A stretch of 64,000 nucleotides of DNA from Nitrospirota bacterium (GTDB lineage Bacteria; Nitrospirota; UBA9217): positions 1-64,000 of the forward strand of contig JAGVOT010000115.1 of assembly GCA_020052615.1 (NCBI GenBank). Reading direction: 5' to 3'. Of this stretch, positions 937 to 14,648 are shown piece after piece (within the stretch, counting starts at the first letter, position 1; the number at the start of each line of letters is the position of its first letter). The position numbers were made by a program, and so were the translations under genes. The notes beneath the pieces were generated by a model that was given only the letters and a program-made list of their open reading frames with translations, did not search any database and had not been told where the DNA came from.

Positions 937-1383
937 TTACCAGGTGTTATATGCCGTGCCGTCGGTCCCGACGAGCGGGCTGGCGCTGTGGACGTCGAAG
1001 ATCCCCCCCTCTTCGTTCTCAAGGGCGATCGTGATCCAGTCTTCGGCGCCGGTAAAAGGGTCCTTCGGTATGCCGCGAAGGTAGCTTTTCGACTTTTCCG
1101 ACTCGTTGATGAGATCCGTGAGCTGGGCGGGGTATTTCCCGTTGTCGGCGTAATATTGGTCCAGGGCATCGCGGATCTGGAACAGGTCTTCCCGAAGCAC
1201 GGCTTCCTTGGCCCGGGTAATGGACTGCTTCAGGCTCGGCTGAGCGATCGTGATAAGGATGCCCATGATGGCCATGACGATCATGATCTCCAGGAGCGTG
1301 AATCCCCTATTGGAGGACCCGGCGACCGTCCGAGCGCTCTCTTGTCCTGTCAGTTCTTTCATGTGTTGTCTCTGGCCTGTCAT
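937..1383 (-). CDS. Type II secretion GspG-like major pseudopilin
   Basis: The prepilin signal is clear: a short polar leader, the G|FTLLE cleavage site with glutamate at +5, then a hydrophobic helix up to about residue 50. The globular part contains the GspG-like pattern of a charged helix followed by a DNGKYPAQL stretch and a GIPKDPFTGAEDW turn, and it ends in a tryptophan. PilD/GspO would cleave and N-methylate it before it joins the pseudopilus. ATGs at 1383 and 1362 are both possible starts; neither has an obvious Shine-Dalgarno sequence. It is the last gene of the secretin operon. Confidence 0.88.
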   Translation of the reverse strand: MTGQRQHMKELTGQESARTVAGSSNRGFTLLEIMIVMAIMGILITIAQPSLKQSITRAKEAVLREDLFQIRDALDQYYADNGKYPAQLTDLINESEKSKSYLRGIPKDPFTGAEDWITIALENEEGGIFDVHSASPLVGTDGTAYNTW

Positions 1384-1413
1384 CAGCAGTCTGTGCTCTG
1401 TCGTCTGCTCACA

Positions 1414-1935
1414 TTACCATGAGCTGTACTTCGTCCCCTCGAGCGATACAGCATCATTCTTTGAATAGATGTCGTACACGTTCTCGCCGCCCCATTGCGT
1501 CGAATCTGGATCGTCGCTATAGGAACGGAGCCCCCAGTTATTCGTCTTGTCTGATTCTTCCAGGGGCGTAAAGGGGTCCCGGGGTATCCGGCGGAGATAC
1601 TTTTTGGTCTTGTCCGTTGCGCCGGCCATCTTCAAGGGTTCCGTCAGTTGTTCCAATGTTTCCGGGTAATTGTTCTGGTCGGCCTTACAGTAGCCTTCGA
1701 GCGTATTGAGTTTCTTGGTGTCACAGTCCTTCTTAAATTCATCAATGGCGTTCCGCAGGATCCTCAAGTTTCTCCTCAGCTCCGTCTCCTTTACGCGTAC
1801 CATCGTCACTCTTGACAATGGCATGACCGCTGTCGCCAGGATGCTGATGATCGCGATGACCACCAGAAGCTCTACGAGCGTGAGGCCATGCTGCTCCAGC
1901 AGGCCCCGCACTCCACGTTGAAAAAGCCCCTTCAC
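1414..1935 (-). CDS. Type II secretion GspG-like pseudopilin (second copy)
   Basis: This is a second pseudopilin of about 173 residues, with cleavage site G|LTLVE and a hydrophobic helix. An RIPRDPFTPLEES turn parallels the one in the downstream pseudopilin, and the protein ends in YSSW. I chose the GTG at 1935 because GGAGAGG precedes it by a good spacing. The open frame runs 65 codons further upstream, but that stretch is a purine-rich repeat with no protein character. It contains a DCDTK...EGYCK segment, so a disulphide between its two cysteines is possible. Confidence 0.82.
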   Translation of the reverse strand: MKGLFQRGVRGLLEQHGLTLVELLVVIAIISILATAVMPLSRVTMVRVKETELRRNLRILRNAIDEFKKDCDTKKLNTLEGYCKADQNNYPETLEQLTEPLKMAGATDKTKKYLRRIPRDPFTPLEESDKTNNWGLRSYSDDPDSTQWGGENVYDIYSKNDAVSLEGTKYSSW

Positions 1936-1974
1936 CCTTTTTCCCTCTCCGATGATGATGCCCCCTCTCCTCTT

Positions 1975-2100
1975 ATTCTCTTCCGACGATGAAGCCCCTT
2001 CTCCCTTTTCCCCTCTCCCACAATGGAGAGAGGGGCAGGGGTGAGGGCCTCTTCCAGGAAGCAACGGTGAGGGTGAATCTTCATAAGGGCGGGGGCGAGG
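1975..2100. repeat. REP-like palindromic repeat between secretin and pseudopilin
   Basis: The spacer contains the imperfect palindrome CCCCTCTCCCACAATGGAGA continuing into GAGGGG (2010-2035), followed by CAGGGGTGAGGG and degenerate GAGGG-rich copies. CCTCTCCC/GGGAGAGG palindromes of this kind are dispersed intergenic repeats in many bacteria. It sits in the middle of an operon and may fold in the mRNA between the secretin and pseudopilin genes. Confidence 0.55.
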
Positions 2101-2131
2101 GTCATGTCCATGCGCGCTCCGCACCGCCATC

Positions 2132-4474
2132 CTATTTCACCGTCATCCTCGCGGGTTTGATGTCCGCCTTGAGCTGTTCCCGGTTATAGTTCCCGAGCTT
2201 GACGCTCTTGAACAGGACCTGGCTTATACCCGCTGATTTTCCCTGAAACACGAGCGAGCAGAGGGTCCCCGCGCCTTCCACGCCGCCTACATCGCCGATC
2301 CGGGTTATGTAGATATCGACGGTCCCGGCCTTGATGTTGTTGGAGAACAGGAACGACGTCTGCTGGTTGTCCTTTTTGAGGAACGCGCCCTCCGCCGCCG
2401 CCTTGAAATCAACGACCTTGGGATCATAGCTTATTGTTATGATCGATCCGTACAGGTCCCTGACGCCCGCTACCGATACATCAAAGCGCGACTCCTGCCC
2501 GACCGGGACCGTTGTGTCGGACGGTTTGAGCTCGAGCAGAGCGGCGCTCGCCGCCGCTTCCACCGCCACCGGCCGCGTTTCCGTGGGCTTGGATTGCACT
2601 GCGGGCTCCCGTTTGGCCAACGTGTCGAGGACAGCCGTCTTTTCCAGGGTCTTCTCCGGCGTCTTGGAGCTCTTCCCCGCACTCATCGTGAACATCGGCT
2701 TCACGTCGTATGCCTCCTCCGTGCCTGACCAGAAGGACTGGTTGTCCTTGTCCGGCAGTTCGAGCGGCCTCACGATGTTCGGCGTTATGGACATGAGGAT
2801 ATCGGTTTTGACCGTCCCGTCATCGGTGTGCGAAAAAAGCTTTCCGAGGACCGGGATATCCCCCAGTAGCGGGATCTTTTTGCTATTCTTCCGTTCTTCG
2901 TCCTTGATGAGTCCGCCGATGATCACGGTCTCGCCGTCTCGCAGGTTGATGGTCGTATCCACGTTGCGGGTGCCGAACTTGTACTGCGTCTGGCCGCTGC
3001 CGAAGCTGATGGGATCGCCGAGGCTGCTGATCTCGAGATTCATCTTGAGCGTTACTGTATTGCTCAAATGCACGTTCGGTTCGATGTTCAATTTTATGCC
3101 GACGTCCTTGTACTCGAAGGTGGATGTCACGGCAACGAGGGCCGTCGATTGGACCGTCGAGGTCTGAATGGGAATGCGGTCGCCGATATGAAATTTGGCA
3201 GTTTTGCCGTTCAGCACCCGGACCCGCGGATTCGCGAGCGTTTGTGCGTCGGAATCCTGTTTGATCAAGTTCAGGAGAAGGCTCGGAAGCGTCAAGACGA
3301 CATTTTCGCTCGACAGGTTGCGAAAATCCTTCAAAGAGATGCCGCCACCCGCGTTCGTCGCGGTAGCGCCGGCGGTGGTAGCCGTGGTCCCCTGGATCGA
3401 TGCCCCGACCTGAAGTCCCGGCTCGAAATTCCAGCCGTATTGCAGGGAATTGGTCCTTGATATCTCGAGAATCTCCACGTCCAGGATCACCTCGGCCTCT
3501 TTCAGGTCGTTCGCGGCAATGATCTTCTCTATGAGCTTGATCTTTTCGGGCGTATCGCGGATCGTGATCGAATTCAATACCTCGTTCACATAGACCTTGC
3601 GCGTATCGGCCATGGACCGCAGCAGGTTGACCGTATCCTTCGCCTTTGCATTGTTCAGATAGAAGGTCTTCATGACCAGGTCCTGGTACTGGTCCAGCTT
3701 GGCTTTGGTCTTGGGAATGATGATGATGGTGTCCGCGCTCAGCTTCTTCATGAACAGTTTGTTGGTGGACAGGAGCAGGTTGAGGGCGTACTGGAACGAT
3801 ACGTCCTTCACAAAGACCGTCACCGGCTGGGCCTTGACCTCTTCATCAAAGAGAATATTGATGCCCGACAGTTTGGAGAGGAGCTCGAACACCTCCTTGA
3901 TGTTCGTGTTCTTGAAATTGAGCGTGACCGGCTTGTCCGAAGCCAGGGTCAGGGCCTCATCGGGCTCGGACTCACTCCGCTTTTTCTGGAGCTTTTCCAG
4001 GGCATCGATATATTTCGCGTTCTCCGGATCGAGTTCGACCGACCGGTTCAGCTCGTTGGCCGCCTCGCTGTGACGGCTCAGCTCCTGGAAGGTCAGGGCC
4101 GCGCGATAATGCTCCTCGGCCTGTTTCATGTTCAGAACGGTCTTGAGGGCGCCATGGATCGCGGCATTGGTCGGATTCAGGTAGATGGCCTGCTGGAGCT
4201 CGATGATGGCCTGGTCGAGCTTGCGCTCCTTCAGAAAATTCCGCGCCCTCTTATAATGCTGGTTCGCTGCCGTTTCCTCGGCTCGCAGCAGTGCGGAGCG
4301 AAACACGATGTCCTGGGGATTCTCCTTCAGGGCTTCGCGGTATTCCTTGACCGCCAGGTCCCACTCCCCCCCCTTCGCGTACTTTTCGCCGCGCTGGAAG
4401 GCCCTCGAACCGGCGCATCCGCCCAGCGCCGCGATCAGGACCATGGTCAGCATCAGTATGCCGATCTTTTTCAT
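2132..4474 (-). CDS. Lipoprotein secretin (GspD/PilQ family) with N-terminal TPRs and C-terminal cohesin domain
   Basis: The 780-residue protein begins with a lipoprotein signal ending ALGGC (Cys20). TPR-like repeats follow (about residues 22-165), then a secretin N0/STN domain (about 180-260), an N1 ring domain with VYVNEVLNSITIRD (about 265-330) and the secretin beta-barrel domain (about 330-600), which carries VRVLNGKTAKFHIGDRIP and the DGETVIIGGLIKDE motif. A linker leads to a cohesin-like domain (about 645-780). It should form the outer-membrane pore of the secretion or pilus system encoded next to it. The TPR and cohesin additions are not in classical GspD; the cohesin part may bind a partner or substrate at the cell surface. 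Confidence 0.9.
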   Translation of the reverse strand: MKKIGILMLTMVLIAALGGCAGSRAFQRGEKYAKGGEWDLAVKEYREALKENPQDIVFRSALLRAEETAANQHYKRARNFLKERKLDQAIIELQQAIYLNPTNAAIHGALKTVLNMKQAEEHYRAALTFQELSRHSEAANELNRSVELDPENAKYIDALEKLQKKRSESEPDEALTLASDKPVTLNFKNTNIKEVFELLSKLSGINILFDEEVKAQPVTVFVKDVSFQYALNLLLSTNKLFMKKLSADTIIIIPKTKAKLDQYQDLVMKTFYLNNAKAKDTVNLLRSMADTRKVYVNEVLNSITIRDTPEKIKLIEKIIAANDLKEAEVILDVEILEISRTNSLQYGWNFEPGLQVGASIQGTTATTAGATATNAGGGISLKDFRNLSSENVVLTLPSLLLNLIKQDSDAQTLANPRVRVLNGKTAKFHIGDRIPIQTSTVQSTALVAVTSTFEYKDVGIKLNIEPNVHLSNTVTLKMNLEISSLGDPISFGSGQTQYKFGTRNVDTTINLRDGETVIIGGLIKDEERKNSKKIPLLGDIPVLGKLFSHTDDGTVKTDILMSITPNIVRPLELPDKDNQSFWSGTEEAYDVKPMFTMSAGKSSKTPEKTLEKTAVLDTLAKREPAVQSKPTETRPVAVEAAASAALLELKPSDTTVPVGQESRFDVSVAGVRDLYGSIITISYDPKVVDFKAAAEGAFLKKDNQQTSFLFSNNIKAGTVDIYITRIGDVGGVEGAGTLCSLVFQGKSAGISQVLFKSVKLGNYNREQLKADIKPARMTVK

Positions 4475-4551
4475 CTTCCCCTCCCGTGTAATGGAGCCGG
4501 CGACCGGGACCGACGCACCGGTGACGATGCCCGATGACAGCGATCCATCGA

Positions 4552-5145
4552 CTACCTGCCGCTGCCCGTCAGCTCTATCCGGACCTCTACCTTCGTGATC
4601 GTGTCGAAGAGGACCACATGGTCCTTCCCTACGGTCTTCACCTGGTAGTTCTTCAGTATCGTATCGCCGCTTTTCACGATGAACAGCTCTCCATCTTTGG
4701 ACAGGAAAAGCGAACTGTCCTTATCGGTAAGATATCCCAGGAACCGGAACCTGGAGAGGTCCGCCCGCGCAAAGTCCGCGGCGATCTGCTCCGGTGTTTT
4801 TACCGGGATCGTGATCGTGGGAAGCGTAACGGTCGCGATCGGTCTCGTTATGAGCACCGGCTTTTTCTTCACCTGCCCGTTCGTACTGCCCATGCGGAAC
4901 AGGTCGCGCGCCACGCCGGGATACTTTTCGACCCGTCGTTCAAGAAAGACCAGGAGCGGGTCCCGCGACCCTCCGGGAACGGCGACCCCTCTCCGTACAG
5001 GCGAAGTCACCTTCATGCCCTGAGTATAGGTCAGCGGCTGGGTCCGTGGCGCATCTTCAGAGGCCCACCGGTACCCCATGATAACAATCATCATCGCTAC
5101 CAAGACCGCCAACAACTTTATCTGTTGCGCTTTAGTCAATGCCAT
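4552..5145 (-). CDS. PilP/GspC-position inner-membrane protein
   Basis: This 197-residue protein has a single N-terminal membrane helix (about residues 10-27), a proline-rich periplasmic linker and a C-terminal domain containing RFLGYLTDKDSSLFLSKDG followed by GDTILKNYQV. That small beta-domain resembles PilP/GspC homology regions, which contact the secretin N0 domain. Position supports the assignment: it lies between the pilO-like gene and the secretin gene, as pilP does in pilMNOPQ operons. Sequence similarity is too low to be sure by eye. Confidence 0.6.
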   Translation of the reverse strand: MALTKAQQIKLLAVLVAMMIVIMGYRWASEDAPRTQPLTYTQGMKVTSPVRRGVAVPGGSRDPLLVFLERRVEKYPGVARDLFRMGSTNGQVKKKPVLITRPIATVTLPTITIPVKTPEQIAADFARADLSRFRFLGYLTDKDSSLFLSKDGELFIVKSGDTILKNYQVKTVGKDHVVLFDTITKVEVRIELTGSGR

Positions 5146-5171
5146 GATCCGTCGAGTTCCTCTATCACAAC

Positions 5172-5741
5172 CTATTGTTCCCGTTCTCCCCGGATGTAGG
5201 TCACCAGCTTCATCTGCATCTTGACCCGCCCCTTTTCGGAGCCCAGCTTCACATCCTGGATGCCCACGATCCGGTCCGAGGTCTCGACCTCGTAGATGAA
5301 CCGTTTGATGTTGGCATAGGCCCCTGATGCGGGAAAGGTGAACGTCAGCATGGTCAGCCCCCCGCTTCCCGGCGTGGGAATATCGGAATTGATCGCCTCG
5401 ACCGAGAGGTTCAACCTGCGGGCCGTCTGCACAAGGTCCTTTATCAGGAGCGGCACATCCTTCTGCGTCGGGATGCCCGAGATGAGGCCGGTAAAAAGAC
5501 GTTTTTGCTTCTGGAACAGGACCGCTTCGGCGTGCTCCTTCTTGAGCTCCCCATACTGCTGCCGGTCAGCGGCAAGCCGACTGGCCGCGGGCGCAACGGC
5601 CACCCCATAGACGAGCAGATTGAGCACGATAAGACCGGAACCCAGGAGCATTAAGGTCCTGAGGCGCTTGGTCGCGGGGCTACCGGCCAGCGCCCGGAGC
5701 TGCTCCGGTCGCCAGATGTTCCTGATACGTGACTGCCACAT
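5172..5741 (-). CDS. PilO-like (GspM-type) assembly protein
   Basis: The protein has 189 residues: a cytoplasmic tail, one membrane helix (about residues 28-50), a coiled-coil segment and a ferredoxin-like periplasmic domain containing VEAINSDIPTPGSGGL and FPASGAYANIKRFIYEVE. The last phrase is characteristic of PilO/GspM folds. PilO pairs with PilN to form the inner-membrane alignment complex. The ATG at 5741 makes a 62-base overlap with the pilN-like gene; an internal start would shorten the cytoplasmic tail but keep the helix. Confidence 0.75.
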   Translation of the reverse strand: MWQSRIRNIWRPEQLRALAGSPATKRLRTLMLLGSGLIVLNLLVYGVAVAPAASRLAADRQQYGELKKEHAEAVLFQKQKRLFTGLISGIPTQKDVPLLIKDLVQTARRLNLSVEAINSDIPTPGSGGLTMLTFTFPASGAYANIKRFIYEVETSDRIVGIQDVKLGSEKGRVKMQMKLVTYIRGEREQ

Positions 5742-6246
5742 TGAATGATAGGTTCCCCTTGTCCATGGATTGATGCTTCAACAGCGGGCTCTTGAAGGCG
5801 CGTGACCTCTGCAGCCCGATCATCAGGTTGCTCAAGGACTCGGGGGACTGCGCGGTCCCTTCGAGCGCCACAGCCAGTTCCCGTGTGCTGAACTCCAGCC
5901 GGTCCAACGCGACGCCGTTGGGAAACGCCGCTTCGATCCCCGTCAGGAGCTGTGTCCAGGAGAACCGCCTTGCCTCCAGCAATCCCGACATGTCGCCCAG
6001 GTCCTTTACGAGCTGCTGCCGTTCCTGCATGGCAGGCCGCATTTTCTCGACCGAAGCGGTGAATTCCCTGACCTGCTGCGTCAAGTCCGCACTTTGCACG
6101 CGATACGAGTTCGCTTGCCAGAGCAGCGCGACCGTCATGGCCACGAGCAGGGCCACGGTGACAACGAGTCCCTGCTGGAGCCGCGCCAGGAGCCGGAAGT
6201 TCGTCCCGGCAAAATTGATGGTGATCAGCGCCGGGCGCTTCAGCAC
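5680..6246 (-). CDS. PilN-like assembly protein
   Basis: The 188-residue protein opens with an INFAGTNFRLL segment, the short cytoplasmic N-terminus through which PilN docks on PilM. One membrane helix (about residues 26-46), a coiled coil with VREFTASVEKMRP, and a periplasmic domain with the PilN-like phrase AAFPNGVALDRLEFSTRE follow. It overlaps the pilM-like gene by 7 bases and the pilO-like gene by 62 bases, as expected for subunits made in fixed ratio. Confidence 0.78.
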   Translation of the reverse strand: MLKRPALITINFAGTNFRLLARLQQGLVVTVALLVAMTVALLWQANSYRVQSADLTQQVREFTASVEKMRPAMQERQQLVKDLGDMSGLLEARRFSWTQLLTGIEAAFPNGVALDRLEFSTRELAVALEGTAQSPESLSNLMIGLQRSRAFKSPLLKHQSMDKGNLSFNVAVTYQEHLATGAAPGAGR

Positions 6247-7172
6247 AAGGCACCTCCCGCGCCGAAGGCCGCCGCGAGGGCGGGATCGGCGTCCGTTCCC
6301 GCCGCGAGAACGAAGGACGGCATGAGGGTCTCTATCTTGAGGCTCGTCTCGTTCTGCAGGACCTCCGAAAGCGGAGCGATCAGCGCCGGTTCACCGGAAA
6401 GATAGAGATGGCCGACCTCCGACTGCTGCTGCCGGTCCATGTGCAGGTAAAAATGGATCGTGTCGTCAAGTTCGCGGATGAGCCGCCCGGTGACATCCTG
6501 TTGGGCGCCTGCCTTGATCTCCCTGTAGCGATAAAAGCGGGGTCCACCCCGTTCCATGATGATCGTCGTGTATGATCCTTCCGCGACCCATACCTGGGCA
6601 TACCCGCGTATGCCCGTCTCGGCAAGATGGGGCGCATAGAGGTTCAGGGCGTTGAACGATGACGGGACCACTGTCCACGGATCGAGGCCCAGACCTGCCA
6701 GCAGGTCCTCGTACTGGGCGATGACCTCGCGCTTGGCAACGCACGCAAGCACGGAAGATCCCCTGTCCTGACGCGGAAGCACCTGATAGCGCAGAAGGGT
6801 GTTGGCCGTATCAAAGGCAGCGCCCTTCTCCAGCCGCCATCGGACCAGGCGGTCACGGTCCCTGGTGTTTGCAGGCAGTTCGTCGAACTCGATGGTCTGG
6901 ACACGGAAGATGCCATCGGGCAGGCTCAACCCCGCGCGGCGGACCGGAAGGGTCGTAGCCTCCCGAATAGTGCCGCGCAGAAGGGAGGCCAGCCCTTCGA
7001 AGTCCTTGATGTTCTGGAAAGCAAATGCCTCGTTCACCATGCCCGCGGGTAACGATACTGTTTTCGAAGCGGAAAGGGATATGGTTCCGTTCTTGCTGGT
7101 GAGCAGTCCCAATCTGAGCGCCTTGGCCGTTATCTCGATCCCAAGGCCTATTTCCTTAAAAAATCTCTGCAT
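6240..7172 (-). CDS. PilM-like actin-fold assembly ATPase
   Basis: This is a cytoplasmic protein of about 310 residues starting MQRFFKEIGLGIEITAK, the actin-like phosphate-1 region seen in PilM and GspL, followed by a RAGLSLPDGIFRVQTIEF segment where PilM proteins have a conserved SLP-type loop. C-terminal LYLSGEPALIAPL matches the actin-fold adenosine region. It would recruit PilN at the inner membrane. Starts at 7181 or a TTG at 7208 are also open; none has a convincing Shine-Dalgarno sequence. It is the first gene of the secretion operon. Confidence 0.72.
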   Translation of the reverse strand: MQRFFKEIGLGIEITAKALRLGLLTSKNGTISLSASKTVSLPAGMVNEAFAFQNIKDFEGLASLLRGTIREATTLPVRRAGLSLPDGIFRVQTIEFDELPANTRDRDRLVRWRLEKGAAFDTANTLLRYQVLPRQDRGSSVLACVAKREVIAQYEDLLAGLGLDPWTVVPSSFNALNLYAPHLAETGIRGYAQVWVAEGSYTTIIMERGGPRFYRYREIKAGAQQDVTGRLIRELDDTIHFYLHMDRQQQSEVGHLYLSGEPALIAPLSEVLQNETSLKIETLMPSFVLAAGTDADPALAAAFGAGGALC

Positions 7173-7291
7173 TGTCAGCATATTAGCAAGGTGGCCCCGG
7201 GAAGTCAATTATTTAGTGCAAGACCGGTGATTTATAGTCCGGTGAACGCAGAAGCTGCGTCGTAATTTCCGAAGAGAACTGATACAATAAA

Positions 7292-7647: not shown

Positions 7648-8703
7648 CTACGGGAGCTTCGGGTATTTGAATGGGACCTCCTCGCCTGACAGTCCCTCAA
7701 CGAGGAAAACCTTGAGCGCCTTTTTCTCCTTGACCGAGAGCTTGAGCGGTTTGAGCGCGGTGTTGCCCTTCCCGCCGCCCTGATCGAAGAATTCGATCAC
7801 CTGCTCCAGGGTCTCGAAGATCCCGTTATGCATGTACGGGCCGGTCTTCGCGATCTCCCGGAGCGTCGGCGTTCGGAATGCCTTCCAGTCCTTCTTGTCC
7901 TTGGTGACCAGGTACCTTCCCGGGTCCTCCTTGAGGTTCAGATAATCCTCGTAGTTCGAGACCTTCGCCACGAACCGCCGCGTCGCAGCCACCCGCGGAT
8001 CCTTCTCCTGTTCCTCGTTCTCGGGAACGTTGAGAGCATAGAACTTGTTGTCGGCAAGGTTCACGCCGTCATGACAGTCAGCGCACTTTCCCTTGCCGGT
8101 GAAAAGGTCGTATCCTTTCTTTGCCTCCCGGGAGAGCGCTTTTTTGTCGCCGTTCAGGAACCGGTCCAGCGGCGAGTTCACCGACACAAGGGTCCGCTGG
8201 AACGCGGAGAGCGCCATGGCCGCCCGCTCACGACTTACCTCTCCGCCGAAGACCTTTCCGAACGCCTCGACATATTCAGGGATCGACCGAAGCTCCTCCT
8301 CAAGGAAATCGAGGTTCTGGTTCATCTCGAAGGCGGACATCATGGGGAAGATCGCCTGTTCCTCGAGGGTATGGGCACGGCCGTCATGGAACAGGAACTT
8401 CTGGAAACCACTATTGATAAGTGTGGGCGAGTTTCGCCAGTTCCTCGTCGTGGGATAACTGAGCGATATAGCCAGGTCGTCGGAGTAGCCCTTCTCGGGA
8501 TCGTGGCAGGTGGAGCAGCTCATCGTGCCGTCGCCCGAGAGCCGCCGGTCGAAAAACAACTTCTTGCCGAGCTCGATCTTCCCGGGGGTCTGGGGATTTC
8601 CCGCGGGGACCGGGACTGCCTTGACGGGTTCGAGCTTGCCGGCGAACGCGCTCCCCGAAACAAGGACCGCGCACAGGATCGTTGCGATAATTTTACTATA
8701 CAT
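7648..8703 (-). CDS. Di-haem cytochrome c peroxidase (CcpA/MauG family)
   Basis: The start at 8703 follows GAGAGGA and gives a Sec signal peptide (MYSKIIATILCAVLVSGSAF). The mature protein has two c-type haem sites, CSTCH (about residue 75) and CADCH (about residue 215), and the family phrase RTPTLREIAKTGPYMHNG, which supplies a distal methionine and histidine. It reduces periplasmic H2O2 using electrons from small c-type cytochromes. At about 351 residues it has normal family length. It follows the DsbA-like selenoprotein gene in the same direction, suggesting a shared role in periplasmic oxidative or thiol stress. Confidence 0.93.
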   Translation of the reverse strand: MYSKIIATILCAVLVSGSAFAGKLEPVKAVPVPAGNPQTPGKIELGKKLFFDRRLSGDGTMSCSTCHDPEKGYSDDLAISLSYPTTRNWRNSPTLINSGFQKFLFHDGRAHTLEEQAIFPMMSAFEMNQNLDFLEEELRSIPEYVEAFGKVFGGEVSRERAAMALSAFQRTLVSVNSPLDRFLNGDKKALSREAKKGYDLFTGKGKCADCHDGVNLADNKFYALNVPENEEQEKDPRVAATRRFVAKVSNYEDYLNLKEDPGRYLVTKDKKDWKAFRTPTLREIAKTGPYMHNGIFETLEQVIEFFDQGGGKGNTALKPLKLSVKEKKALKVFLVEGLSGEEVPFKYPKLP

Positions 8704-8785: not shown

Positions 8786-9382
8786 TTACGTTGCCTTCTT
8801 CAGTTCCTCATCGATGATCTTTTTCAGGTATTCGAAGGGCCGTTCCCCCACAACCTGTCTGCCGTTGATATAGAAGGTCGGGGTGTTGTAGAGGTCCATG
8901 TCCGTCGCGAGCTTGAGATCGGCATCTATCTCTTTTTTGAACTTCTGCCCATCGATGGAATCGGCGAATCTCTTCACGTCGAGCCCCAGCTCCTTCGCAT
9001 AGCCGATCAGGCTCGCCCGGTCGAGCTTGGGAGAACGCTTGATCAGGATATCGTGCATTTCCCAGTATTTTCCCTGTTCCCTTGCCGCGAGCGACGCCTC
9101 GGCGGCGATCCGCGAATAGTCCCGGTAGCGGTATGGATAATTCTTGATCACCAACCGCACCTTCCCCTTGTAGACGTCCATGATCTTCTTGACGACCGGA
9201 CCGGCCGCAACGCAATGGGGTCATTGGAAATCAATGAATTCGACGATCGTCACCGGCGCGTCCTCGGGACCCATGGACGGGGAATCGCCGAGCGGGACCG
9301 TAATTCGTTTATCGGCGGCGGCTGTCAGCGTCAGGAACAGCAGGAGGAACATGCCTGTCGCGAACGGAAGGATCTTCTTCAT
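8786..9382 (-). CDS. DsbA-like thioredoxin-fold selenoprotein with UPHC active site
   Basis: The ATG at 9382 follows AAGGGGGG and opens a Sec signal peptide (MKKILPFATGMFLLLFL). The mature part reads DAPVTIVEFIDFQ, then UGA at 9221-9223, then PHCVAAGPVV. Relatives have C-P-x-C exactly here, so UGA most likely encodes selenocysteine 54 with Cys57 as resolving residue. The frame continues unbroken for 144 more codons and holds the helical insert and the cis-proline loop NTPTFYINGR of the DsbA family. Total length would be 198 residues, normal for the family. The protein would act on thiols or disulphides in the periplasm. A nonsense mutation is the alternative, but the position of the UGA, the intact frame, the hairpin after it and the selenoprotein formate dehydrogenase nearby argue against that. 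Confidence 0.9.
9189..9210 (-). promoter_or_regulatory. Putative bacterial SECIS hairpin of the DsbA-like gene
   Basis: Downstream of the UGA the mRNA can pair UUG and CGGCC with GGUCG and CAA around the loop GGUCC, with one bulged U; 8 bp with one G-U. The loop starts 18 nucleotides after UGA, the spacing I recall for GGUCU in E. coli fdhF. A GGU-type loop and a bulged U are the features SelB recognises in that RNA; here the bulge is on the 3' side. Confidence 0.7.
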
Positions 9383-9399: not shown

Positions 9400-9430
9400 A
9401 AAAAAAGAGGCGGGACAAAGTCCCGCCTCC
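9400..9430 (-). terminator. Terminator between nrfD-like gene and DsbA-like gene
   Basis: GAGGCGGGAC and its complement form a perfect 10-bp stem with a 3-base loop, followed on the minus strand by seven U. The U tract ends about four bases before the Shine-Dalgarno sequence of the selenoprotein gene, so it may limit read-through from the formate dehydrogenase operon or act as an attenuator. Confidence 0.85.
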
Positions 9431-9446
9431 TTCTACGAACATCGTC

Positions 9447-10583
9447 TTAATGCGATTTCCCCGGTTCGTGGAACACGGGGAGGTAGGTAACCGCCAGACG
9501 GTACAGCAGGACCATGAGCGACACAAGGCCGATCGTGATAAGGATCTCGACGATCGACGGAAAGTAATTGGAGTTCGGTCCCGCCTGCGCGAAGAAGTTC
9601 ACGTTGAACCGGTTCATGACGGTCCCGACGATCACGCAGCAGGCGGCCAGGAACAGGCCGTTCACCGATTCGCGGATGGACTTCACGGCGTACAGACCGA
9701 TCGGCACGATCACGCCGATCAGCATCTCCAGGATGAAGAACACACTCGCCTTGCCGCTGGAGAACACCTGGGACAAGGCACCCCGATAGGCGAGATCGCC
9801 GACCTTGAAGGCAAAGTAGAGGCCCAGGGTGATAAGCACGCCCCTCCCCAGTCCCTGGATGATCTCCATCTCCTGCTCCCGCTTGAATGCCCGGGCGCTC
9901 ACAATGGACTCGAAGGACACCATGGCGAGTCCTAGCGCGATGGCAGAGAGGTAGAACATATACGGCAGGTTTGACGACCACCACAGCGCCGGGACCTTGT
10001 GCGGCATGATCAGGAAGAACCCGCCCAGCGACGACTGGTGCAGGAACGACAGTACGATGCCCGCAATGACCAGCGGGAAGGTGAAGAGCTTCAGGAACTT
10101 CTGCAGCCCCGTCAGTTTGAAGCGCTCGAGGAACGCCGGCGCGAACTCCAGCGCCAGCACCGCAGAATAGAGGGTGATACAGACCACGACCTCGAACATG
10201 ACCGACCGCGGGTTCCACATGACCAGGGGATGCCAGAAAGCGAGCGGCTTCCCGATGTCGATTACGAGCCCAATGACCACGACGGTATAGCCGATCCAGG
10301 CCGTGAGGATCGCCGGCCGGGCAATGGACTTATACTTCTTCATATTGAAGATGTAGACGGCGGCGGTAATGCCGAAGCCGCCGGCTGCCAGGGCCACGCC
10401 CGAAAGCACGTCCACGGCGACCCAGAGGCCCCAGGGAACGCTGTCCGACAGGTTCGTCGAGGCGCCGAGGCCCACCCAGAAGCGGTAGAGCGCCGCGGCA
10501 AAGCCCACACCGACCAGTGCGATAAGCGCCTTAAAGCCGGCAGCCGGTGCCGGTAATGCTGAAGCTGTTGAGGTAGCTGCCAT
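9447..10583 (-). CDS. NrfD/HybB-type quinone-interacting membrane subunit of formate dehydrogenase
   Basis: This 378-residue protein has about ten membrane helices. Typical NrfD/HybB phrases are visible: VPWGLWVAVDVLSGVALAAG near residue 50, GKPLAFWHPL and NPRSVMFEV near 120, and a late RFNVNFF motif. It would pass electrons from the iron-sulfur subunit to menaquinone or ubiquinone. Its place downstream of fdnG and the ferredoxin-like subunit shows that this enzyme uses an NrfD-type anchor and not the cytochrome b556 of E. coli FdnI. The start lies two bases after the stop of the iron-sulfur subunit gene. Confidence 0.9.
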   Translation of the reverse strand: MAATSTASALPAPAAGFKALIALVGVGFAAALYRFWVGLGASTNLSDSVPWGLWVAVDVLSGVALAAGGFGITAAVYIFNMKKYKSIARPAILTAWIGYTVVVIGLVIDIGKPLAFWHPLVMWNPRSVMFEVVVCITLYSAVLALEFAPAFLERFKLTGLQKFLKLFTFPLVIAGIVLSFLHQSSLGGFFLIMPHKVPALWWSSNLPYMFYLSAIALGLAMVSFESIVSARAFKREQEMEIIQGLGRGVLITLGLYFAFKVGDLAYRGALSQVFSSGKASVFFILEMLIGVIVPIGLYAVKSIRESVNGLFLAACCVIVGTVMNRFNVNFFAQAGPNSNYFPSIVEILITIGLVSLMVLLYRLAVTYLPVFHEPGKSH

Positions 10584-10585
10584 GG

Positions 10586-11404
10586 CTATTTCTCCTTCCC
10601 TTGTTTGGATTCCGAGGAATCATCATCGTTGTTCGCGCCCCGGTTCCTGAAGGCCGCGATAAGCGAAAGACCGACCACCAGCGCGCCGACCTTGGCGGGG
10701 ATGGTGCCCAGCATGTTCCAGGTGAGGTCGGGCAGCTTCTGCGCCGGGATCTTCGTGTTGAACCCGAGTTGGTCGAAGGGGACCGCCGAGAGATAGACCC
10801 AGGATGTTCCGCCGGCCTCCTCCTTGCCGTAGATATGATTCACATATTTGCCCGGGCTGTCCTTCATCCGCTTCTCCGCTTCCTTCATGATATCTTCCCG
10901 GTTGCCGAAGAGCATGACGTTCGTCGGGCAGACCTTGATGCAGGCCGGTATCTTGCCATCGGCAATGCGGTCGGAGCAGAACGTGCACTTGCGGATCCAG
11001 GGGTTCGTGGACTCCCATTCGTACTTGGGAATATTGAAGGGGCAGGCCACCATGCAGTACCGGCAGCCGATGCACTTTTCGAAGGTGTAGTTCACCGCCC
11101 CTTCGGGGGTCCGGGTGAACGCGCCCACCGGGCAGGCCGACAGGCAGGCCGGGTCCTGGCAGTGCATGCACTGGTCCTTCACGAAGGACCAGACCGGCTG
11201 GGCACCGTTGTCCTGTTCGATAAATGCGATGCGGGTGAAGGTATCCGAGTTGAGCTGCTTGGGATTGGTGAAATTCCCCTCGATGGTCGTCTTTCCGGTC
11301 TTGCGCTCGTTCCATGACTTGCAAGCCACCTGACAGCCGCGGCAACCGATACAGCGGGTCAGGTCGACCAGCACGCCTTTTGCTTTTTCGTTATTCGTCG
11401 CCAT
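10586..11404 (-). CDS. Formate dehydrogenase iron-sulfur subunit (FdnH-like)
   Basis: The 272-residue protein carries four cysteine clusters for [4Fe-4S] centres: CIGCRGCQVAC (about residue 18), CMHCQDPACLSACP (about 78), CIGCRYCMVACP (about 111) and CTFCSDRI with CIKVCP (about 137-160). A C-terminal hydrophobic segment (KVGALVVGLSLIAAF) anchors it in the membrane on the periplasmic side, as in E. coli FdnH. It relays electrons from the molybdopterin subunit to the NrfD-like subunit. It has no Tat leader of its own, so it is probably exported as a complex with FdnG. Confidence 0.93.
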   Translation of the reverse strand: MATNNEKAKGVLVDLTRCIGCRGCQVACKSWNERKTGKTTIEGNFTNPKQLNSDTFTRIAFIEQDNGAQPVWSFVKDQCMHCQDPACLSACPVGAFTRTPEGAVNYTFEKCIGCRYCMVACPFNIPKYEWESTNPWIRKCTFCSDRIADGKIPACIKVCPTNVMLFGNREDIMKEAEKRMKDSPGKYVNHIYGKEEAGGTSWVYLSAVPFDQLGFNTKIPAQKLPDLTWNMLGTIPAKVGALVVGLSLIAAFRNRGANNDDDSSESKQGKEK

Positions 11405-11413
11405 GACTGCCTC

Positions 11414-14400
11414 CTATGCTTTCTCAACGTTCACCATGAACGCCTTGGTTTCAGGGATCATCGTATTTGCATCCCCGACGGTCGGGGTGAGCAGGTTCGC
11501 GCTGTCCCCCTGACTTCCCTTGACAGGATACTGCCATCCATAGCACCAGGGCATGCCGACCTGGTGCACCGTCTGGCCGCCGATCCTGAAGGGTTTGAAC
11601 CGCGAGGTCACCACGGCAACGGCTGATATCTCGCCGCGTCCGGATTTTACCTTCACCCGGTCGCCGTTCTTGATGTTCTTCTCAGCCGCAAGCTCCTTGC
11701 TCATCTCGACAAAGGACTGCGGCTGCATCTCGAGCAGCCAGGGCGTATGCCGCGTCATGACGCCGGTCTGCCAGTGTTCGGTCACGCGGTACGTGGTCGC
11801 CACATAGGGATAGCGCATGTCGCAGGAGTAGAACGCGTCCTCCTTCTCGCCGAAGATCTTGACCGTCGGGTTGATCCGCTGTTTGGACAGGAGGTTCTCC
11901 TCGAGCGGACATTCCAGCGCCTCGTAATGCTCGGGGAAGGGCCCCTCGTTCATTGCCGCCGGGACAAACAGAGCGCCTTTGCCGTCCGACATCATGATGA
12001 AGGGATACTTTCCCGGGTCCTTTGCCATGGGCGGCGCAGGCCCGTCGGGCACATCCCCCACCCACATGCCGGGCTTCTTCGATACCGGGTCCTCCTTGTT
12101 GGCGTCCCACCTGAGCAGCGGCCGTTTGGGATCCAGGGGATTCCCGTTAACGTCCACCGACGCACGATTGTAGATGATGCGCCGGTTCACCGGCCATGCC
12201 CACGCCCAGCCGGAATACAGCCCGAGTCCCGTGGGATCTTCCTTGCCGCGGCGGGCCATCATGTTGATGATCTTGCCTTCCTTCTGCGTGTAGCTCTGGG
12301 AGTAGATCCAGCACCCGCAGGAGGTCTTGCCGTCTGCCTGGAGAAAGACGAATGAAGGGACAAGATCGCCCTTTTTCCCGATGAGCTTCGGCGGCGTGGC
12401 CTTCGTGTCATACACGTCCTCAAGGTAGTAGCCGTTGATCTCCTTGGCCACGTCGTGGGCGTTGATGTGCTTGCCGTAGTTCCAGGTCAGGTTCATGATC
12501 GGCGCCGGGAACTTGCCGCCTTCTTTCTTGTACAGATCCCGGATCTTGTGGAACAGCTCGTTCATGATCTCGGCATCGGGCTTTGACTGGCCGAGCGGCT
12601 CGATGGCCTTGTAGCGCCACTGCGCCCACCTGCCCGAATTGGAAAGGCTCCCTTCCTTCTCGATGGACGAGACGCAGGGCAGCATGAACACCTCTGTCTG
12701 GATATCCTTGGGATTCACGCCCGGCCCCTTCCAGAACTCACCGGTCTCGTTGTCGAAGAGGTTGACGTTTACCATCCATTTGAGCTTGGCGAGCGCAGCG
12801 CGCGTCTTGTTCGAGTTCGCGCCCGAACAGGCCGGGTTCTGGCCCCAGGCGAAAAAACCCTCGAACTGGCCCTTGAACATCTTGTCGAACAGCATGAGCC
12901 ACGAAGCGTTCTGGCCTTCATCGATCTTCGGCAGCCAGGCATAGCCGAAATCATTCTCCTTGGTAGCGGCCTTGCCATAGATGGCCTTGAGGTAGCTCGT
13001 GATGTACTTGTTCCGGTTGGACCACCAGTTGACGCTCTTGGGGTCCTTGGTCTTGGGCGTGAACTTCTCGATGTAGGTGTTCAGGTCCTTGACCGAGGCC
13101 GAGGGTGTGGGGTTGTAGCCCGGCAGGATGTGGAACAGGATGCCGTGGTCCGTGGAACCCTGCACGTTCGACTCGCCGCGCATGGCGTTGATGCCGCCGC
13201 CGGCGATGCCGATGTTGCCGAGCAGGAGCTGGACAATGCACATGGCGCGGATGTTCTGGGTACCGACGGTGTGCTGGGTCCAGCCCATGGCGTAGAGCTC
13301 GGTGCCGGCCTTGTTCGGCCTGCCCGTGGAACCGTAGAGCTTGTAGACAGCCTCGAGCTTGTCCTTGGGTGTGCCGGTGATGCTCGACACTTTGTCGAGG
13401 GTGTAGCGGGAATAGTGCTTCTTCATGAGCTGAAACACGCAGTGCGGATCTTTGAGCGTCGGGTCCTTCTTCGGGATCCCGTCCTCGCCCATCTGATAGC
13501 CCCAGGTCTTCTTGTCGTACTTCCGCCCCTTCTCGTCGTAACCGGAGAACAGGCCGTTCAGATCGGTCGGGCCCTTGTAATCCGGATTCACGAGATAAGC
13601 GGCATTCGTGTAATTTATGACGTAGTCTTTGTAATAGAGATTGTTGTCCAGGATATACTTGATCATACCGCCCAGGAAGGCGATATCCGTGCCCGAGCGC
13701 ATAGGCGCGTAGAGGTCTGCCTTGGAAGCGGTCTGGGTGAACCGGGGGTCCACCACGATGAGCTTCGCGCCCTTTTCCTTCGCCCGCATCACCCATTTCA
13801 TGGAAATGGGGTGGTTCGAGGCCGGGTTGGCGCCCATTACGAGAACAACGTCAGCGTTCTTGAAATCGATCCAGTGATTCGTCATTGCACCGCGTCCGAA
13901 CGACCCTCCCAGGGCCGCTACCGTTGCGGAGTGTCAAATTCGCGCCTGATGCTCTATATAGACCAGGCCCAGGGACCGCATCATCTTCTGGAGCAGGTAG
14001 CATTCCTCGTTGTCCAGAGCGGCGCTGCCGATATGGGCAATGGCGTCGGTCCGGTTGACCGTGAACTCCTTCTCGACCTCTTTTTCCGTGCCGTCAGGCT
14101 GTTTTTCCTTCACCTTGGCTTTCGAGGTGAGCTTGAACGTGCGGTCGCGGGTGTCCTTCACTTTTTTCGCGATCTGGTCCAGCGCCCAGTCCCACTCCAC
14201 CTCTTTCCAGTCGCTCGCGCCGGGCGCCCGGTACTTCGGCTTCAGAAGACGGGTATCGTTGTTGACCAGCTGCATGAGCGATGCGCCCTTCGGGCAGAGC
14301 GTCCCCTCGTTGATCGGATGCTCGGGATCGCCCTCCGTGTTCACCACCTTCCCGTCCTTGGTGTGGACGATGATACCGCAGCCCACGGCACAATACGGAC

Positions 14401-14536
14401 AGATGGTGCGTGTTTCCTTGGCGCCCTTGGTCTTCGACCCCTGCTCTTTTGCATCAGCAGAGGCCGGGACGGCCAGCGGACCCAGCAACAGCGTGCTTCC
14501 TGAGATCTTCAGGAAATCCCTTCTTGATACCCCCAT
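11414..14536 (-). CDS. fdnG: Formate dehydrogenase catalytic subunit, selenocysteine-containing, Tat-exported
   Basis: The ATG at 14536 follows AAGGAGGG and opens a twin-arginine leader (SRRDFLK). CPYCAVGCG and the later CPKG hold the [4Fe-4S] cluster. At 13934-13936 an in-frame UGA sits in HQARI-U-HSATVAALGG, where FdnG proteins have selenocysteine bound to Mo or W (residue 201 here, 196 in E. coli). The frame continues to 11414, giving about 1040 residues, normal for the family; the sequence right after UGA (FGRGAMTNHW) is also typical. The enzyme oxidises periplasmic formate to CO2. A GTG at 14551 is a weaker start. A standard SECIS was not obvious to me after this UGA. Confidence 0.95.
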
Positions 14537-14648
14537 GGTTCCCTCCTTCACTCGAATAGTAAGATCGTAATTCCTTATCCTTCGCAGTGCCGATTTGTCA
14601 GTCGTTATGCAAAAATTGCCTAACGTTCTTCAGTATAGCAAAAAAAGA

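Follow-up and report, generated by a model that had tools for sequence, protein, structure and literature searches.

A selenocysteine-containing DsbA-like protein paired with a di-haem peroxidase at formate dehydrogenase loci of Nitrospirota and Desulfobacterota

Genes and signals of the locus

The window, that is, the whole stretch of 64,000 nucleotides analysed here, comes from a draft genome of 3.99 Mb (98% complete) and carries five consecutive genes on its minus strand. They encode the alpha subunit of a formate dehydrogenase (FDH) of the FDH-N type (11414..14551), with an in-frame UGA (selenocysteine, Sec) at 13936–13934; an FeS beta subunit resembling FDH-beta and HmcB (10586..11404); the NrfD/HmcC-like membrane subunit of the cluster (9447..10583); a Sec-containing DsbA-like protein, here Sec-DsbA (8786..9382); and, as the downstream neighbour of the latter, a di-haem peroxidase of the CCP/MauG superfamily with the haem-binding motifs CSTCH and CADCH (7648..8700). 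We refer to the last two genes as the module. Further downstream on the same strand (937–7208) there are pilin- and secretin-like genes, with prepilin-type N-termini and a secretin-like protein of 780 aa.

A terminator-like hairpin with a perfect stem and a tail of seven T (9400..9429, minus strand) separates the FDH genes from the Sec-DsbA gene and lies about 18 nt ahead of the start codon of the latter. Similar hairpins are seen in several Nitrospirota relatives, and they suggest separate or attenuated transcription of the module. Since the hairpin divides the module from the FDH genes, the module may be a transcription unit of its own. A scan for consensus promoters and terminators reported nothing, the 9400..9429 hairpin included; the latter was probably missed because the T run can base-pair with the stem as well.

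The Sec-DsbA frame (9382–8786, 198 codons) is interrupted only by a TGA at codon 54 (9221..9223, minus strand), exactly at the first active-site position. The features listed in the original prediction, namely the frame, the length of 198 aa, the UGA at codon 54 in the context VEFIDFQ-U-PHC, the signal peptide and the cis-Pro loop (NTPTFYING), were all re-found in the sequence. With U replaced by Cys, the protein matches the Pfam families Thioredoxin_4 (100 bits) and DSBA (72 bits), and it has the characters of this superfamily: a thioredoxin fold with a helical insertion, a CXXC-type site and an invariant cis-Pro (P168). The AlphaFold2 model has pLDDT 95.6 and pTM 0.88; the nearest structures (3gyk, BdbD, alpha-DsbA2 and ScsC) are ordinary DsbA-like proteins. 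Nevertheless, "ordinary DsbA" is a poor description of this protein, because the genome has a separate Cys-containing DsbA, whose gene adjoins dsbB on another contig (C70).

Selenocysteine in the active site

To compare codon 54 between species, we used 198 genomes of the same phylum, the Nitrospirota, 115 of which have a DsbA-type match. Exactly one in-frame TGA was found in all 34 matches with identity of at least 52%. Codon-by-codon mapping demonstrated that position 54 is TGA, and never TGT or TGC, in 53 loci from two collections, at least four contigs being present there twice, and TGA is also found in 13 Desulfobacterota loci, some of them shared with that set. The 47 Sec proteins used for the tree form one clade (support 0.96) that spans the Nitrospirota and Desulfobacterota, and every member examined has TGA at this position. 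The codon is retained over the range of 46 to 89% identity, with conserved residues on both sides. Homologues below 46% identity have Cys at position 54, the exceptions being a few proteins with a UGA of their own (L195 and others) and a single Ala, in a tandem copy of L062. Hence the Cys/Sec pairing, named in the original prediction as a check to be made, is indeed observed, the UGA being aligned with the redox Cys of the homologues; none of the close relatives examined has a sense codon here, and one other than Cys was to count against the prediction.

The other DsbA-like frames with one TGA (L195; G181:C46, G191:C69, G008:C30 and others; 33–42% identity) represent a different Sec lineage. 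L195 scores under the cut-off of NF041057, the family discussed below.

The genome encodes the full set of selA, selB, selD and tRNA-Sec that the original prediction proposed to look for. The selA and selB genes are adjacent, selD itself contains a UGA, and the anticodon of tRNA-Sec is UCA. There are two tRNA-Sec genes in this one draft genome, both with UCA (C50:31653-31747 and C130:47997-48087; L106 and L107), the second copy being either unusual or a binning artefact.

A bacterial SECIS hairpin (9192..9208, minus strand) consists of a 6-bp stem and a GGUCC loop; the predicted spacer of 18 nt between the UGA and the loop was confirmed. Taken singly, this sequence does not fold with a better energy than its shuffled versions (z 0.08), and therefore the hairpin alone is weak evidence. 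Comparison of 42 distinct sequences revealed double-sided changes in four of the six stem pairs and loss of pairing when the stem partner was slid along; the covariation score was reached by none of 500 shuffles. Synonymous constraint is seen in the loop, where the codons GGT and CCG are nearly fixed (each in 47 of 48 distinct sequences), while in the same genes GGT accounts for about 18% of the Gly codons and CCG for about 33% of the Pro codons. It is this cross-species comparison, not the energy, that makes the case for a SECIS element strong.

The original prediction of a likely selenoprotein is backed by the invariant UGA of the clade, the covarying SECIS and the Sec machinery, and we consider it near certain, as judged from the sequences, that the UGA is decoded as selenocysteine by SelB and tRNA-Sec with the help of the downstream hairpin. 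Termination at the UGA, or a gene in decay that has acquired a nonsense mutation, would agree with the chance-level fold of the single hairpin, but a UGA kept between conserved flanks over such a range of identities, the compensated stem and the complete machinery leave this reading very improbable; the comparison appears to have refuted it already. Even less probable is a different genetic code with UGA standing for another residue such as Trp: we found no support for it, the homologues have Cys at the aligned site, and both tRNA genes with the UCA anticodon found in the genome are those of tRNA-Sec.

The original prediction also mentioned Sec variants of DsbA-like proteins in some Deltaproteobacteria, and the literature agrees. 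Sec-containing DsbA-like proteins have been known since the Sargasso Sea survey (PF01323 with UxxC; PMC1088965, PMC1794560); others are Dde_1263 (PMC1914089) and "DsbA-like protein form 1" (PMC13188914), and they are tabulated in a 2026 review. All share with Sec-DsbA the DsbA fold, Sec at the first active-site position and the UxxC motif. The descriptions in the accessible portions of these reports, by which we set the known proteins (representative NIP15863.1) apart from ours, mention neither the Nitrospirota/Desulfobacterota clade nor a peroxidase partner nor a link to FDH. The best NCBIfam match of Sec-DsbA is NF041057, the Rcas_1661 thioredoxin-like (seleno)lipoprotein (DsbG-like), a family of the same superfamily that may contain Sec. 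Membership was rejected, as the score is 89.3 bits (68–90 for members of the clade) at the cut-off of 190. In the open-access literature we found no description of the Sec-DsbA/peroxidase pair or of its link to FDH; hence what seems new is not a Sec-containing DsbA-like protein as such, already known, but the module context. This setting, a peroxidase partner and a neighbouring Sec FDH, was absent from the original prediction and tells more about the function than the fold does.

The peroxidase partner and the formate dehydrogenase

The peroxidase gene lies directly downstream of the Sec-DsbA gene in all 53 loci and in all 13 further Desulfobacterota loci. Conversely, a close peroxidase (at least 59% identity, the next best being 46–47%) is present in 35 of the 198 genomes, 34 of which have Sec-DsbA; in the only exception (G005) the locus is cut by contig ends, and a remnant of the Sec-DsbA gene remains at the edge. 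In the Desulfopila phylum sample of 395 genomes, seven have the peroxidase (E ≤ 1e-90), and Sec-DsbA is found in all seven. As gene order and co-occurrence show, Sec-DsbA and the di-haem peroxidase form an obligate two-gene module.

Similar to di-haem cytochrome c peroxidases, MauG and MbnH, the partner has the PF03150 domain and two CXXCH motifs, and scores 184 bits against the cytochrome c551 peroxidase 3hq6. Assignment to MauG or MbnH was rejected, as the scores are below the NCBIfam equivalog cut-offs (228.6 against 443.85 bits and 201.2 against 362.85 bits, respectively). In the partner, an invariant Tyr-Pro (Y82-P83) occupies the place of a His, presumably the distal haem ligand, in the corresponding loop of 3hq6. 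The cysteines of the peroxidase are those binding haem, plus one in the signal peptide. Having no free thiol, the peroxidase cannot trade disulfides with Sec-DsbA, and any exchange between the two would require electron transfer or proceed via the target.

The gene order of the window is repeated in both phyla, the Nitrospirota and the Desulfobacterota; many loci have a cytochrome b561-type subunit instead of NrfD, and in many, fdhE follows the peroxidase gene. In 20 of 23 named loci, FDH precedes the module and has the same orientation. In one Nitrospirota family with small genomes, three genomes have the pair apart from FDH and followed by fdhE and moeA, and at two loci (L047, L154) the pair lacks an FDH gene in its vicinity. 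Gene order thus shows that the module usually resides at the locus of a predicted periplasmic Sec FDH or beside the maturation genes fdhE and moeA.

Comparable arrangements exist outside the clade. Its nearest Cys relative (L183/L316, genome G226; support 0.90) is encoded just upstream of a Sec FDH. With CSFC in its active site, this DsbA forms a fusion protein (L316, 10682-11965, minus strand) with a peroxiredoxin domain in which TGA replaces the peroxidatic Cys codon (TPV-C), apparently a further selenoprotein architecture. In G568 and G473, genes for a TlpA-like CPHC protein and a peroxiredoxin come after the FDH and FeS genes, and in G230 a TlpA-like/peroxiredoxin pair is upstream of FDH. 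A TlpA-like gene followed by a peroxiredoxin gene (TPVC) beside FDH was mapped in L342 (about 3418-4661, CPHC), L343 (about 6910-5687, minus strand, CPHC) and L334 (3162-4331, CPYC). When FDH loci lacking the pair (about 15 Nitrospirota and 40 Desulfobacterota) were screened for a nearby DsbA, G226 was the only clear case, and a TlpA-like protein with a peroxiredoxin was seen in three more. A peroxiredoxin gene is also directly upstream of four Bacteroidota Cys homologues; a true fusion was ruled out there, these being neighbouring genes in different frames. Taken together, the fusion, the TlpA pairs and the Bacteroidota neighbours demonstrate a recurring combination of a thiol oxidoreductase with a peroxidase, frequently at FDH loci.

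In Desulfovibrio vulgaris FdhAB, the C845–C872 disulfide is an allosteric switch: the enzyme is inactive and O2-stable when the disulfide is formed, active and O2-sensitive when it is reduced, and the accessible portions of the two reports name no physiological partner (PMC11323313, PMC13397495). Aligned along its length with D. vulgaris FdhA (6sdr), the FDH alpha subunit of the window shows a Cys at each of the two positions, the codons being 11909..11911 (C845) and 11822..11824 (C872), minus strand. Hence it has both cysteines of the switch; the switching activity is predicted from the sequence, and the dedicated partner is proposed here.

Both cysteines are present in 46 of 47 FDHs of genomes with the module, compared to 76 of 104 close FDHs of genomes without it (Fisher test, 1e-4). 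On the FDH tree, a Pagel-type test speaks for dependence (LR 27.3, p 1.7e-5), although the events behind it are few, the alignment is short and the genomes are drafts. In two genera (G117/G115 and G155/G106), the member with the module has both cysteines (CC), and the module-less member has CG or CA. We regard the association, as read from the alignments, as real but modest. The possibility that the pair is exclusive to genomes with the module was rejected, since it is widespread without it. On the other hand, G354 retains the module and has lost the second Cys (CN), and G230, with its TlpA-like/peroxiredoxin pair, has GA in FDH. Given these cases and the frequency of the cysteine pair without the module, the switch cannot be the sole target.

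Possible function of the module

The reading we lean towards, with moderate confidence, is that of a dedicated peroxide/thiol module protecting or switching an O2-sensitive FDH. The peroxidase would remove H2O2, and the presumed selenenyl-sulfide (Se/S) pair of Sec-DsbA, expected to be fast and of low potential, would exchange with a disulfide of FDH, the best candidate being the surface pair equivalent to C845/C872. Such an exchange could toggle FDH between an O2-protected resting form and the active form. As for the direction of the electron flow, re-reduction, that is, reactivation after stress, seems somewhat more likely than peroxide-driven oxidation. A more specific version, possible though doubtful, is a periplasmic relay dedicated to one enzyme, in which the peroxidase senses or consumes H2O2, and Sec-DsbA passes the signal, or the reductant, on to the disulfide that regulates the Sec FDH.

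Two other explanations leave FDH aside. Sec-DsbA could assist in the assembly of the di-haem peroxidase by holding the CXXCH cysteines in the reduced state, or in the right pairing, that haem attachment needs, with the link to FDH reflecting merely a formate-to-peroxide respiratory chain. The link of Sec-DsbA to the peroxidase is indeed stricter than that to FDH, the cysteines of the mature peroxidase all bind haem, and a cytochrome c peroxidase could be fed by formate oxidation. However, a DsbA devoted to one peroxidase is seldom required; the fusion partner in the nearest relative is a thiol peroxidase, with no link to a haem one; and FDH genes or fdhE/moeA accompany the pair across two phyla. 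Further, the active site of CcmG and ResA is WCXXC, from which the CPHC-type dipeptide differs. We consider this role rather unlikely. Still less probable is a general role in periplasmic disulfide oxidation or antioxidant defence, that of a second DsbA with incidental neighbours, where Sec would do no more than speed up the reaction. It is consistent with the fold and the ordinary DsbA-like proteins among the closest structures, but the genome already has its own DsbA beside dsbB; besides, the peroxidase is adjacent in every locus read and FDH is present in most, and chance neighbours are not kept across two phyla.

The clade is also of note as a DsbA family that is Sec-only in every member examined and has unusually clear SECIS covariation. 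If the relay operates as proposed, selenium chemistry would guard a selenium enzyme, and the same relay would have arisen independently in the fusion of DsbA to a (Sec)peroxiredoxin and in the TlpA–peroxiredoxin pairs at other FDH loci. Such FDHs are among the leading catalysts of CO2 reduction, and their O2 sensitivity is set by a surface disulfide; a conserved module that accompanies many such FDHs would be a concrete candidate for the partner of this disulfide.
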